A DNA stretch of 45,000 nt from Verrucomicrobiota bacterium (GTDB lineage Bacteria > Verrucomicrobiota > Verrucomicrobiia > JADLBR01), in the NCBI GenBank assembly GCA_029560585.1, contig JAKQKQ010000212.1:1-45000 (forward strand). Direction: 5' to 3'. Below are positions 14,887-20,244 of this stretch, one piece after another (the first letter of the stretch is position 1; each line of letters begins with the position of its first letter). The notes below the pieces were generated by a model. That model had not been told where the DNA came from. It did no database searches and saw only the letters and a program-made list of their open reading frames with translations. Both the position numbers and the translations under genes were made by a program.

Positions 14887-15867
14887 CTAGCCGCGACGAG
14901 GATGATCAGCCACGGGGGGGGCCTTGGGGGCGATCCTGGAAGTCCTTTGGGATCGGGTGATCCGCGCGTACGAGATGGGTCCGCTCATGGAAGGCGCCTG
15001 GTGGCCGCTGTCATCATCGGCGCGGGACGGAGGAGGCGGCATGGGCAGCTGTCGGGTCACGGCCACCGGCCCCATCTGATGCGGCACCTGTGGCAGTGGC
15101 CTGGAGGGGAGCTGGAGGGTTTCGGTTCTCAGCCGGGGGCGCTTCAATGCGATCTCGAACCGGATCAAGGCGGTTCCCGCCCGGATGATATCGTTGACCT
15201 CGAGCTGGGCCTCGGTCACGGGCTGGCCGTTGACGAATGTCCCGTTGGAGGAATTCAGGTCGCGCACCGTGACCCGTCCGTTCGATAGCAGGAAGACACA
15301 GTGTCGGCCGGACAGGCTGGGATCGGGCAGGATGATTTCGTTGGTGGGTGCTCGACCGAGATGGACGACCGGCAGATTGATGTCGTAGGTGCGACCCTCG
15401 ATGTTCTCTCCGTAAATCAGGAGCCTGCCGGTTTGGGTCGCCGGATCGATGCGGGCACCGACGGCGGCAGCCGCGTCCGTCGCGCCAACGCTCTCAAATC
15501 CGGGCGGCGGCGGCGCCTCCGCCGCCAGGGTGGCCCGTTGCTGGTGGTGACTGGCATCGAGCATCTGGTCCCACGTGGCTTTCAGGGTGCGCTGGGGTGG
15601 AGTGACCCCGTCTCGGAAGGTGAATTCGCCCGGCGGCCAAGAAAGGATTTCCGCTGCGGCGACCTCGGCGGTCGAGTGCCCAAGTTCCGCGTGAACAACC
15701 TCGCCCTTTTCAAGATGGATCAGCCCGCATTGTCCCTCGTACTCGAACCGCAACTCTCCCGACCGACGGCTCAAACAGCACATCTGGAGAATATCGCAGG
15801 GAGGGAAATTTCGAATCTTTTCGAAAAAACCCTTCTGGATTGCAGAACTGGACTCGGTCGGGAACAC
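14887..15867 (-). CDS. DUF4388-FHA domain protein, membrane tail lost by frameshift
   Basis: 326 aa as read. Residues 10-105 resemble the DUF4388 (PATAN-like) domain (GFFEKIRNFPPCDILQM...GELRFEYEGQCG). Residues 148-238 are an FHA phosphothreonine-binding domain with its signature residues: HLGR (169-172), SGRH (186-189) and NSSNGT (205-210). The tail is Pro-rich. The frame stops at 14887 after a run of 8 C on the coding strand (14914-14921). With one C fewer it would continue to a TGA at 14817-14819, adding a clear membrane helix (LIILVAASVLIVAYLII) and the end WLRLW. The intact gene would therefore be 14817-15867, 7 nt ahead of the activator. Sequencing error, true mutation or tract slippage are all possible. 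Start is GTG at 15867. Confidence 0.85.
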   Translation of the reverse strand: MFPTESSSAIQKGFFEKIRNFPPCDILQMCCLSRRSGELRFEYEGQCGLIHLEKGEVVHAELGHSTAEVAAAEILSWPPGEFTFRDGVTPPQRTLKATWDQMLDASHHQQRATLAAEAPPPPGFESVGATDAAAAVGARIDPATQTGRLLIYGENIEGRTYDINLPVVHLGRAPTNEIILPDPSLSGRHCVFLLSNGRVTVRDLNSSNGTFVNGQPVTEAQLEVNDIIRAGTALIRFEIALKRPRLRTETLQLPSRPLPQVPHQMGPVAVTRQLPMPPPPSRADDDSGHQAPSMSGPISYARITRSQRTSRIAPKAPPVADHPRRG

Positions 15868-15988
15868 GGTAGTAAATCGTATGTTACGCAGCGGACAGAT
15901 GTCGTGCTTTCTTGTTGCGCTTTATGGGCAGAGCACCTAATGTATGTTCGAGTCGGTTTACATCGCAGCCACTCAAGTCGTTCCTAGC

Positions 15989-18900
15989 ATGGGCCTTCTA
16001 GACCGTTTGTTCAAGTCCAAGCGTCCGGGGGATCGCGATGCGGAATCCGGTGTGCCGGAAGCCGTATCGGAGGCCCCCGGCGCACCGCCGCGTCCAGCCG
16101 AGCCGGATGTCCCGGCGCAGTCGGGGCCATCGAGGCCCGCGCCCACCATGGTCATACGTCCGCGGGGTCCCGGGATGATCACCGGAGGCGCCCAGGCCCC
16201 GGTGGGCGTCGGCGCAGCTGGCATACCGAGGCCAGCATCGCCGCAGGGGACGGGCGCTGCCACACATGGTGCCACAGGGCTTCCGGTTCAGTTGACGCAG
16301 CGTATTTCACTTAGGCCGGGCGGGGCTCCTCAGGCAGGGATGACGCCACCCAGGCCGAAGAAGGAAACGCAACGATTTGCCCTTGCGCCGGCCGCGAGTG
16401 GGACCCCGCTGCCGCCGCCGGATGCGGGTGTCGTGCCTGGGGCCCCTGCGGAAGGCGGCGATTCCCAGAGGCTTATCTTCCCCCTTGGCATGGTGCTGAG
16501 GAGTTTGCCACCTGAGGTGCTGAGTACCGATTTGGGGCAGTTGCTGGCTCGGCCGACGGTAGCGGGGGGCACCGTGTCGGTGCCGATGGATCAGGTTTTG
16601 CGGCAGTTGCCGACGGGGGTGGTACAATTCACCTTTGATGTTTTTCAGGCACAGATCCCACGTGATCTCTTGCTGCCGCCCGATCAGTTGGCCACGCATT
16701 GGGATCGCCCGATTCGGCTGCCGCTCGGCGAGGTGGTGAGCAGGATACCGCCGGAGGCAATGGGCCGACGGAGCGCGACTCCCGTCAAGGAACAGCAGGA
16801 GTATGAGTCAATCGATGCGCCCTTCCGCGTGCAGCCTCAGGGCGCCAGGGGCCGACGCACGTCGAGGCTCACCCCGCCTCCAGAGGAACCGGTGGCTCCT
16901 GCCCCTGTTCCTGAGCCTGTTGCCGAGCCCGCAGTTCAGGCGGGGATCCCATCACCCGAATTTCCCCAAGTCCCCGCCGATGTGCCCGCGTTTAGCGAGG
17001 CGATGCCCTTCGAGGCCGAAGGTTTCCAACCGTTCCGCAAGGCGGTGGCTCCGGTCGGGCAAACACCGGAAGCGCCGGGTTCGGGTGTGGCGGCCCCCAT
17101 GGGGCAGCCGTTGGGCACGGTGCCCTTTCAGGGTGTCACGCCATCCCAGAGTGCGCCGACCATGGGGATGACGGGGCAGATATCGCTCATGGATTTGGAG
17201 AGCGAGGCCGATATTCAACGGGAACCTACTCAACGCTTGTCGAAACCACCGCCAGGATTAATTGCGATCAGACCGCCAGCGACCAGCGCGCTGCCTTTCC
17301 CGGCGGAAGAAGGCGATCTCCCTGCGGGGATCCCACTGATGGCCCCAGAACCGGCGAGGGCCGCCTTCCCCGAACCACCTGCGGCGGAAAAAGCGGAAGG
17401 ATTTGGCGGCGGTTTGTCCGCCCTGGCCTCTCTGGCTGCGATGGCGGACAGCGAACCGCCCGAAGCCGAAGAAGAGCCCTCTCCAGAGCCACCTCAGGCA
17501 AAACCGGCGCCTGTCGAACCGCAACTCATGGGGGCGCCTCCGGCCGGACCGGTGGCCCAAGGCGGAGCGTGGTGGGATTCTGGGGCGGGCAAGGCAGATG
17601 CCGCAGGGCCCGCGAGTGTCGCGGCGCCCGCACCACCCGATAAGAGTCCGCTTTCTGGCCTAGCGGCCCAATGGCTGGCGATGCAGGGGAGCGCGGAAGA
17701 AGAATCGCAGGCGAAGGCCCCGCCAAGCGTGCCGGCACCGGCAGTCGAACCCCCGGCGGCTTTCGAACCGCCCACCGTCGCGCCCGCTCGTCCCGTGCAA
17801 GAAAAGACCGCCGCCCCGACCGCCAGGAATTGGTGGGAGACGCCCTTAGAGGAATCCGAGCTTGTCGAGGCCAGTCCGGCTGTGTCCGACGTGGGACTTC
17901 CCGACGAACTGGAGGCGAAGCCCGAAGTGGAATCCAGACCAGCGATCCCAGCAGAATTTCCGCCCATTTTTGTCGCCAAGGCAGCACCCAAACCCGAAGA
18001 GCCTCAGATGCCGGCGGTTGCGGCTGAACCGCCACCCATTTTCGCTGCGAAGGCTGTCATCAAGCCTGGGGCGGCTCCGGGGTTCGTCCCGCCTCTGAGC
18101 GCGGTCGTTCCAGACCTGAGGCACAGACCGGGCGCTCAGCCGAGGCCACCGTCAGTCCCTGTCAGCGCCCCAGTGGTCCAGAGACCGGAGGCCGCGCCAG
18201 TTGCAGCGCTGCGGCCGGAGACACCACCTCGAGTCATGCCCGTGAGCCCCAAGGTGCCCTCTAGGCCACCTCAGCCGTCGCGACCGCCCTTGGTGCGCGC
18301 GCCCGAGGCGGAGCCCCAGTTCGCGGCATTCGCCTTCCCGGCGGAAGCCGCCCCTTCTTCCGCTGTCGCTCCGGCACCATTGCCGCAGAAGCCCGTCCCG
18401 GCCCCGCGCAAACCCGTCACGCTTGCGTCGGCCGGGCGCATCGGGGCCCAGGGCCGACCGAAGGGCACGACCCCTCCCATTCAGCCGATACGCGAGACCG
18501 AGGTCCTCAGCGCGCCTCGGCAGCGATCGCCAATCCCGGTTCCCAAAATGCGTGCCGATCGGCTCTCGGGGCTCTTGCGGGCAGCGGCGAGTTGGACCCC
18601 CCGGAGCGCCATCGCGGTTGCGGCGCGCCCCATCAATCCCCGGCGGATACTGTCCAGATGGCTTGGCCTTGAAGTCGAAAGGGAAGTGCCCATCCAGCAA
18701 GTGCCCCATCTGCTCGTCAACAGTCCGCACGTCAAAGGGGCGGCCATTGTGGACGAAGAGGGACTCACCCTCACGAGTCACCTGCCGGAGGGCGTTTCGG
18801 AGCAGGCCGTGGGCGCTCTATCGTCGAGACTCTTCAATCAGCTCAGGACCGCAGCCAGTGAGGTGGGCTCGCAGTTCGCCAATCAGGCGATCATGACCCT

Positions 18901-19042
18901 CGGCCGATGGACCGTGCAGATCACGTTCGAAAAGCCCTTCTACTTGGTCACGCTCCACGACAGCCCCCATTTCCCGCCCGCCGTTGCGAGGCGGATGCGC
19001 AAGATCGCGGGTGCATTAGTCCGCCAAGAATTCGGGGGCTGA
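15989..19042 (+). CDS. long Pro-rich protein with LP-repeat module and C-terminal roadblock domain
   Basis: A 1017-aa protein; it starts MGLLDRLFKSK, a basic amphipathic opening that may touch the membrane. Residues about 164-260 hold a repeated module (FPLGMVLRSLPPE, VPMDQVLRQLPTG, FTFDVFQAQIPRD, LPLGEVVSRIPPE). Some 600 residues of low-complexity Pro/Ala/Glu linker follow, with internal repeats such as PPIF-AKA--KP and two WW-centred motifs (WWDSG, WWETP). The last 110 residues look like a roadblock/LC7 domain (VKGAAIVDEEGLTLTSHLPEG...). Roadblock proteins bind and regulate Ras-like GTPases, and the next gene is one. An upstream ATG at 15944 is in frame but gives an unconvincing extension. 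I infer a scaffold for the MglA-type GTPase. Confidence 0.8.
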   Translation: MGLLDRLFKSKRPGDRDAESGVPEAVSEAPGAPPRPAEPDVPAQSGPSRPAPTMVIRPRGPGMITGGAQAPVGVGAAGIPRPASPQGTGAATHGATGLPVQLTQRISLRPGGAPQAGMTPPRPKKETQRFALAPAASGTPLPPPDAGVVPGAPAEGGDSQRLIFPLGMVLRSLPPEVLSTDLGQLLARPTVAGGTVSVPMDQVLRQLPTGVVQFTFDVFQAQIPRDLLLPPDQLATHWDRPIRLPLGEVVSRIPPEAMGRRSATPVKEQQEYESIDAPFRVQPQGARGRRTSRLTPPPEEPVAPAPVPEPVAEPAVQAGIPSPEFPQVPADVPAFSEAMPFEAEGFQPFRKAVAPVGQTPEAPGSGVAAPMGQPLGTVPFQGVTPSQSAPTMGMTGQISLMDLESEADIQREPTQRLSKPPPGLIAIRPPATSALPFPAEEGDLPAGIPLMAPEPARAAFPEPPAAEKAEGFGGGLSALASLAAMADSEPPEAEEEPSPEPPQAKPAPVEPQLMGAPPAGPVAQGGAWWDSGAGKADAAGPASVAAPAPPDKSPLSGLAAQWLAMQGSAEEESQAKAPPSVPAPAVEPPAAFEPPTVAPARPVQEKTAAPTARNWWETPLEESELVEASPAVSDVGLPDELEAKPEVESRPAIPAEFPPIFVAKAAPKPEEPQMPAVAAEPPPIFAAKAVIKPGAAPGFVPPLSAVVPDLRHRPGAQPRPPSVPVSAPVVQRPEAAPVAALRPETPPRVMPVSPKVPSRPPQPSRPPLVRAPEAEPQFAAFAFPAEAAPSSAVAPAPLPQKPVPAPRKPVTLASAGRIGAQGRPKGTTPPIQPIRETEVLSAPRQRSPIPVPKMRADRLSGLLRAAASWTPRSAIAVAARPINPRRILSRWLGLEVEREVPIQQVPHLLVNSPHVKGAAIVDEEGLTLTSHLPEGVSEQAVGALSSRLFNQLRTAASEVGSQFANQAIMTLGRWTVQITFEKPFYLVTLHDSPHFPPAVARRMRKIAGALVRQEFGG

Positions 19043-19129: not shown

Positions 19130-19753
19130 ATGGCCTATATAAACTACGCGCAGCGCGAGATACAGTTGAAGGTCGTCTATTACGGCTGCGGATTCTGCGG
19201 CAAAACGACGAACCTTCAGGCCATCCATCACACCCTCGATCCGCAGCAGAAGAGCGATCTGGTGTCGCTCGCCACGAGCGGGGATCGCACGCTGTTCTTC
19301 GATTTCATGTCGCTGAAGACCCCGACGCTGAACAACTTCACCGTCAGGTTCCAACTGTACACCGTGCCGGGGCAACAGATTTACATGAGCACTCGCCAGC
19401 TGGTCCTGCGCGGTGCCGATGGGATCGTCTTCGTTGTGGATTCCGGTTGGGACCGGATGCCCGAGAACGTGGAATCGTTCCAGGATCTTCAGGAGAACCT
19501 GTTGGCCAACAACCTCTCGCTGGCCCAGATCCCGTGCGTCATCCAGTACAACAAGCGGGATTTGCCGGAATCGGCCAACATAGAGTATCTGGAGTACGCG
19601 TTTAACAACCGCGCCATCCGGGCGCCGTCGTTCGAGGCGGTGGCGCCGCGCGGGGAAGGCGTCATCGAGACGCTCAATGCGATCGCGAGGCTCCTCATGG
19701 TCAAGTATTCGAAAACATCCCAGGCGGGCATGGCGCCCGCCCGGGCACAATGA
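19130..19753 (+). CDS. MglA-type small Ras-like GTPase
   Basis: A 207-aa GTPase of the bacterial MglA group, which sets cell polarity and motility in Myxococcus and has broader roles elsewhere. The P-loop is GCGFCGKT (19-26), the G3 region reads TVPGQQ (78-83, the usual DxxG being replaced as in MglA proteins), and NKRD is at 141-144. Flanked by roadblock-domain genes on both sides; the stop overlaps the next gene by 4 nt. The sequence next to the ATG is a poor ribosome binding site, but a good AAGGAG at 19091 serves a 4-codon GTG mini-ORF ending 9 nt before it. Confidence 0.92.
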   Translation: MAYINYAQREIQLKVVYYGCGFCGKTTNLQAIHHTLDPQQKSDLVSLATSGDRTLFFDFMSLKTPTLNNFTVRFQLYTVPGQQIYMSTRQLVLRGADGIVFVVDSGWDRMPENVESFQDLQENLLANNLSLAQIPCVIQYNKRDLPESANIEYLEYAFNNRAIRAPSFEAVAPRGEGVIETLNAIARLLMVKYSKTSQAGMAPARAQ

Positions 19754-20244
19754 GGCAAGCCATGGACCCATTTGCAAACGTCCCGTCATCCGTTGGTGCG
19801 GCGGAGGTCAGGGCGCTGCAGGGCGCGCTGCAGGGTTTTCTCGAGGCCACGAGCGCGCACTGGGTGGCCCTTTGCGACCGTGCGGGCAACCTGCTCTTCC
19901 ACGAGGGAAAGGACCCCGGAAGCGACGTGGCGATCCTGTGCGCGCTGGCGGCGGGTTCCTTCGCCGCGTCCCGAGAATTGGCGCGGCGCCTGGGGACCAA
20001 TGAGTTTGCGGAACAGGTTCACGAGGGCGAGGGTCTGCGGATCCTGCTCCACTCTTTGGACACTGAGACGCTTCTCGTCGTGGTCTTCCAACATTCGACC
20101 TCCATCGGGCTGGTGCGCTACTATGCGGCCAAGCTGGCCAATGAGGTGACCGGCATGGTCGAGGAGATCGCGCGGGCCGGGGCGATCGCATTCGGGCAAT
20201 TGCCCCCCATCGAACTGGATCCGGCGCGTCCACTGCTCTCGTAG
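19750..20244 (+). CDS. roadblock/LC7 domain protein (MglB-like)
   Basis: A 164-aa protein with a single roadblock/LC7 fold: an alternating strand-helix pattern from HWVALCDRAGNLLFHEG through LLVVVFQHSTSIGLVRYYA. MglB-type roadblock dimers act as GTPase-activating proteins for MglA, and this gene overlaps the MglA-type gene by ATGA, so that role is likely. A second in-frame Met (MDPFANVP) four codons on is an alternative start. It is the last intact gene of this operon. Confidence 0.82.
   Translation: MRQAMDPFANVPSSVGAAEVRALQGALQGFLEATSAHWVALCDRAGNLLFHEGKDPGSDVAILCALAAGSFAASRELARRLGTNEFAEQVHEGEGLRILLHSLDTETLLVVVFQHSTSIGLVRYYAAKLANEVTGMVEEIARAGAIAFGQLPPIELDPARPLLS

Follow-up and report, generated by a model that had tools for sequence, protein, structure and literature searches.

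In Myxococcus, the Ras-like GTPase MglA drives type IV pilus assembly via an effector (PMC7519303, PMC7668184). Docking on Ras-like GTPases is a property of roadblock proteins such as MglB and the subunits of Ragulator (PMC9481161, PMC7949163, PMC5680233). MglC is a paralogue of MglB in the same polarity system (PMC7949163), and RomY is a protein of 188 residues with a conserved N-terminal region that has no domain-model match (PMC9481161). In a survey of prokaryotic small GTPases, Group 5 MglA proteins were found in Verrucomicrobia, and the gene neighbourhoods of this group varied widely (PMC4316618).

The DNA analysed here, a stretch of 45,000 nucleotides that we call the window, contains a gene for a long roadblock protein followed by genes for an MglA-type GTPase and an MglB-like protein. 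The features are as follows:

14887-15867 (-): DUF4388 and FHA protein, divergent (PF14332, 6.6e-16; PF00498, 1.6e-19); relatives lie near many loci that contain the domain
15944-19042 (+): ORF of the long roadblock protein, with all four repeat units inside
15989-16030 (+): N-terminal hydrophobic/aromatic and basic peptide, seen in relatives
16463-16831 (approx., +): new domain of ~115 residues, four strand-helix-like units and a tail (profile matches, column conservation)
16472-16519 (+): unit 1, LIFPLGMVLRSLPPEV (best-16-mer search)
16574-16621 (+): unit 2, VSVPMDQVLRQLPTGV (best-16-mer search)
16622-16669 (+): unit 3, VQFTFDVFQAQIPRDL (best-16-mer search)
16712-16759 (+): unit 4, IRLPLGEVVSRIPPEA (best-16-mer search)
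16811-16825 (+): tail motif I-x-x-P-F (IDAPF; profile columns)
16832-18694 (+): Pro/Ala-rich linker, presumably disordered (from its sequence)
18695-19033 (+): C-terminal roadblock/LC7 domain (PF03259, E 2.7e-6; family profile)
19130-19753 (+): MglA-type Ras-like GTPase (Pfam Arf and Ras; co-occurrence)
19750-20244 (+): MglB-like roadblock protein (PF03259, 1.4e-8; NCBIfam MglB model, 7e-16, below its cut-off)

Repeat units and the domain that contains them

The four units are in register over 16 residues each and follow approximately the pattern V-x-L-P-L-x-x-[IV]-x-x-x-[LI]-P. Residues 171-300 were searched without bias for the best four ungapped 16-mers, and the same search was carried out on 300 shuffles. 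The real sequence reached a score of 126, compared with 33±12 (maximum 83) for the shuffles, none of which attained it. The search recovered exactly the four units quoted in the sequence-only reading, whose claim that they recur is thus borne out. Its narrower formula, V-x-x-x-[LI]-P, describes three of them, but unit 3 has F in place of V; there is also one chance match to the formula at residue 332. The spacing of the units from start to start is uneven (34, 16 and 30 residues).

In the family profile, the units share the register V-x-L-P-L-x-x-[IV]-[LV]-x-x-L-P-x-x-L, starting at columns 2, 31, 47 and 74, and their unit-to-unit profile scores sum to 58.5, as opposed to -28±8 when the columns are permuted. 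When the profile is aligned to itself, columns 1-63 match columns 46-106 off the diagonal (P 1.9e-6). Judged by this self-match, the domain consists of two duplicated halves, each of the form unit-loop-unit, plus the I-x-x-P-F tail, in which column 105 is hydrophobic and column 109 is F in ~100% of the 188 sequences. At the level of sequence, the four repeats are thus one previously unnamed domain. The units had been described as separate short elements within residues ~164-260; they do recur, but they are parts of one two-fold duplicated domain, which runs further, up to the tail.

It is very improbable that the units are nothing but chance repetition in unfolded, low-complexity segments of the linker. 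The low confidence of the AlphaFold models would fit such an explanation: two runs on an alignment of two sequences gave pLDDT values of 54 and 61, with a strand-helix pattern in units 1 and 2 and no confident fold, and the better model (pLDDT 61, pTM 0.46, likewise of low confidence) had a best Foldseek hit with an E of 2.4. The shuffle test contradicts it, however, as do the near-invariant P, G and F columns of the 188-sequence profile and the phylum-wide detection of the domain by profile. In a coevolution analysis of the 188 sequences, the pairs between units were scattered and mixed with signal from subfamilies, and the result was kept out of the evidence.

The sequence-only reading had matched the units to no named domain, and the analysis supports a distinct, conserved module without one. 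None of the 18 members scanned against Pfam showed a match of the domain above the gathering score (best E 0.12, in single members), neither the window protein nor the domain hit an NCBIfam family at E up to 1, and an hmmsearch of the PDB sequences with the domain profile returned nothing at E up to 10. Orthologues keep the domain, and the profile finds it across the phylum. In profile comparisons with hhalign, kinship to the roadblock family (probability 0.1%) and to DUF4388 (0.6%) was rejected, and none was seen to MglA, MglB, T2SSE, TPR-MshEN or ExbB. An AbrB-like reading of unit 2 was also discarded: the spacing after the proline differs, and Pfam gives no support. Our literature searches turned up no paper describing either the domain or the long roadblock protein.

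Architecture of the long roadblock protein

Most relatives begin with an N-terminal peptide of the kind that follows the internal ATG at 15989 (MGLLDRLFKSKRPG), so this ATG is likely the true start of the ORF. Of 117 relatives, 80 have such a peptide in front of the domain, compared with 12% of shuffled sequences and 27% of other ORFs, and it is possibly a membrane-targeting sequence. The stretch before this start (15920-15990) is well conserved in the close relative L031 (5480-5552) and has no obvious Shine-Dalgarno sequence.

Between the domain and the roadblock end of the window protein lie 626 residues, which agrees with the ~600 residues of linker in the sequence-only reading; this distance is not a conserved property, however, as it ranges from 40 to 782 residues (median 155) among relatives. 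The roadblock match of the window protein, at residues 906-967 of the query translation, passes the PF03259 cut-off (27.5 bits vs 23). Fusion of the domain to a C-terminal roadblock is the rule, being found in 113 of 119 domain proteins (in two of them as a weak match). Among the six exceptions, L031 and L090 are truncated or lie at the end of a contig, and L178 and L197 look frameshifted. The other two are a PhzF-like protein and a coiled-coil protein of 2494 residues. The former is encoded in genome G458 (L142, 4043-6283, -), where a copy of the domain lies within a PhzF-like ORF (PF02567, 3.4e-49) without a roadblock. The latter, in genome G556 (L134, 6500-13981, +), is headed by two domain copies and looks like coiled coil in its remainder, with neither a roadblock in the ORF nor MglA nearby. 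A helix-hairpin-helix (HHH_3), unusual for a GTPase scaffold, lies between linker and roadblock in 30 of the 119 proteins (e.g. L074, L095); the window protein does not have it.

Distribution and gene neighbourhood

Two samples of Verrucomicrobiota genomes, many of them draft assemblies, were searched by profile. The domain is present in 94 of the 385 Verrucomicrobiia genomes (62 of 174 genera) and, in the phylum-level sample, in 32 of 388 (32 genera out of 199). The 122 loci examined contained 119 domain proteins, 48 of which have one copy of the domain, 68 two and 3 three. The search of genome contigs gave L031, a member of Verrucomicrobiia that its contig places in the same genus as the window, as its sole match, and scans of viral contigs revealed no relatives. 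A second copy of the arrangement (C15), comprising a domain protein, an FHA-type gene and MglA (61% identical), is present in the window's own genome.

An MglA-type GTPase gene clustered with an MglB-like gene, the mark of an MglA/MglB system, is present in the window (19130-20244) and in most loci. MglA-type GTPases occur in 96 of the 385 class genomes, 88 of which also have the domain, while 6 genomes have only the domain and 8 only MglA (Fisher p 2.5e-69, with shared ancestry ignored). In 86 of the 88 genomes, MglA lies downstream of the domain gene on the same strand, at a distance of at most 2.4 kb, and in the two exceptions the domain gene reaches the contig end. The MglA-only loci inspected were five of family f24 and that of G594, with G233 and G537 left out. 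All five f24 loci carry a diverged domain in a long ORF adjoining MglA; the MglA locus of G594 lacks the domain. In other families of the phylum, the domain gene is divergent from mglA-mglB, and an FHA gene often comes after it. The f30, f108 and G556 loci contain the domain with no MglA detected nearby. Among them are L139 and L140 of family f108, whose domain proteins have no MglA in the fetched flank; in L139, an ORF of 916 residues follows.

In part of the class, the domain gene is linked to a pilus ATPase. In 26 loci, which belong to ten families, a gene for a PilB-type ATPase is situated directly upstream in the same orientation (-112 to +129 bp), with TIGR02538 as the best model (down to 1.3e-202 and up to 674 bits, against a cut-off of 675.65). 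In many of these loci it is preceded by a TPR-MshEN gene, and part of the class shows the order TPR-MshEN, PilB-type ATPase, domain protein, MglA, MglB. The T2SSE ATPase is absent from the fetched flanks, many of them short, in 89 of 119 loci; since many flanks extend over only 1-2 kb, the counts of PilB and FHA adjacency are lower bounds. The flank analysed in the window locus contains no pilus gene; in L065, which belongs to the same taxonomic order as the window, two PilT-family genes are situated 1.4-2.5 kb upstream. Presence of PilT as such was rejected as a test of function, because nearly every genome of the class has it (359 of 385), which makes it uninformative.

In eight loci, genes of the ExbB/TolQ and ExbD/TolR types (ExbB/ExbD-type for short) come after the domain gene in the same orientation: L083, L130, L198, L206 and L135-L138, the last four being without detectable MglA. 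Such neighbours recall AglRQS, the motor that is served by MglA in Myxococcus.

Proposed role and relation to known systems

We favour, with a probability of about one half, a role of the long roadblock protein as an adaptor or scaffold of an MglA/MglB-type switch, in which the new domain binds a partner, for which the pilus motor is a plausible candidate. For physical contacts, membrane location and output, we infer the following course. The roadblock end probably joins the MglA/MglB complex, which is the usual role of roadblock proteins, and the long flexible linker would allow the N-terminal domain, in its one to three copies, to engage another partner at the inner membrane, where the basic-hydrophobic N-terminal peptide may help to keep the protein. 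This partner would most likely be the motor of type IV pili or some protein at the pilus base, because of the gene order with TPR-MshEN and the PilB-type ATPase in front of the domain protein, MglA and MglB, and the switch would control where or when pili work. Against this stand the analysed flank of the window, which is free of pilus genes, the 89 loci that show no T2SSE ATPase and the low confidence of the predicted fold. The domain could serve other partners as well, since the four MglA-less loci keep the domain protein followed by ExbB/ExbD. The binding platform proposed in the sequence-only reading is thus made plausible by the gene neighbourhood, with a partner that is putative.

Two other explanations seem unlikely to us, and to a similar degree. 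The new domain might itself bind MglA or MglB and tune GTP hydrolysis or exchange, as RomY does on MglB, in which case the roadblock end would be part of the same regulatory complex. The near-perfect co-occurrence and adjacency with MglA would agree with this, and RomY shows that extra subunits of the GAP complex exist (PMC9481161). However, the domain persists in the f30, f108 and G556 loci, where no MglA is detectable nearby, it occurs without a roadblock in the coiled-coil and PhzF-like proteins, and it has no profile relation to the MglA or MglB families. Alternatively, the domain might serve to anchor the GTPase system at the pole or the membrane, with no machine-specific partner. The basic-hydrophobic peptide of most relatives points in this direction, as does the fact that the domain stays while its neighbours change (PilB, ExbB/ExbD, FHA), but a more specific role is suggested by the direct operon linkage with a single class of motor ATPase, seen in ten families.

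Beyond the adaptor role itself, we tentatively propose a wider reading, which we rate somewhat lower: the proteins may constitute a phylum-wide adaptor family whose undescribed two-fold repeat domain makes a physical link from a Ras-like switch to the motor of type IV pili and, in certain lineages, to motors of the ExbB/ExbD type. If so, Verrucomicrobiota would have their own polarity module of distinct design. With the long roadblock protein, a missing component of MglA/MglB systems is identified in a phylum where, according to the literature found, such systems are uncharacterised. One domain and one neighbouring ATPase provide a testable handle on the wiring between Ras-like switches and surface machinery in bacteria other than Myxococcus.

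The closest described system is the M. xanthus MglA/MglB module (with MglC, RomR/RomX and RomY), in which the gene for a Ras-like GTPase likewise accompanies one for an MglB-like roadblock protein, another roadblock protein belongs to the system and there is a link to type IV pili. In contrast to that module, the Verrucomicrobiota protein is a fusion of 400-1270 residues with a new N-terminal domain. It differs from RomY in size and architecture, a distinction drawn from the published description (PMC9481161). Ragulator, as a membrane-anchored scaffold, and the roadblock/LC7 superfamily in general share with it the use of roadblock as a GTPase docking unit (PMC5680233), but the new domain is unrelated to roadblock/LC7 by profile. 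An effector between MglA and pili, as proposed here, resembles SgmX, the TPR effector that leads from MglA to type IV pilus formation, and in some Verrucomicrobiota loci a TPR-MshEN gene adjoins PilB; unlike SgmX, the new domain is not TPR, a separation made by Pfam only. The neighbour of the long protein in the window carries DUF4388, which we take to be the PATAN (PatA N-terminal) family. PATAN proteins are described near MglA/MglB genes (PMC4316618), but DUF4388 and the new domain are distinct (probability of 0.6% in the HH comparison). The survey reported variable neighbourhoods for Group 5 (PMC4316618); when the domain is used to recognise the long protein, a highly conserved neighbourhood emerges here.
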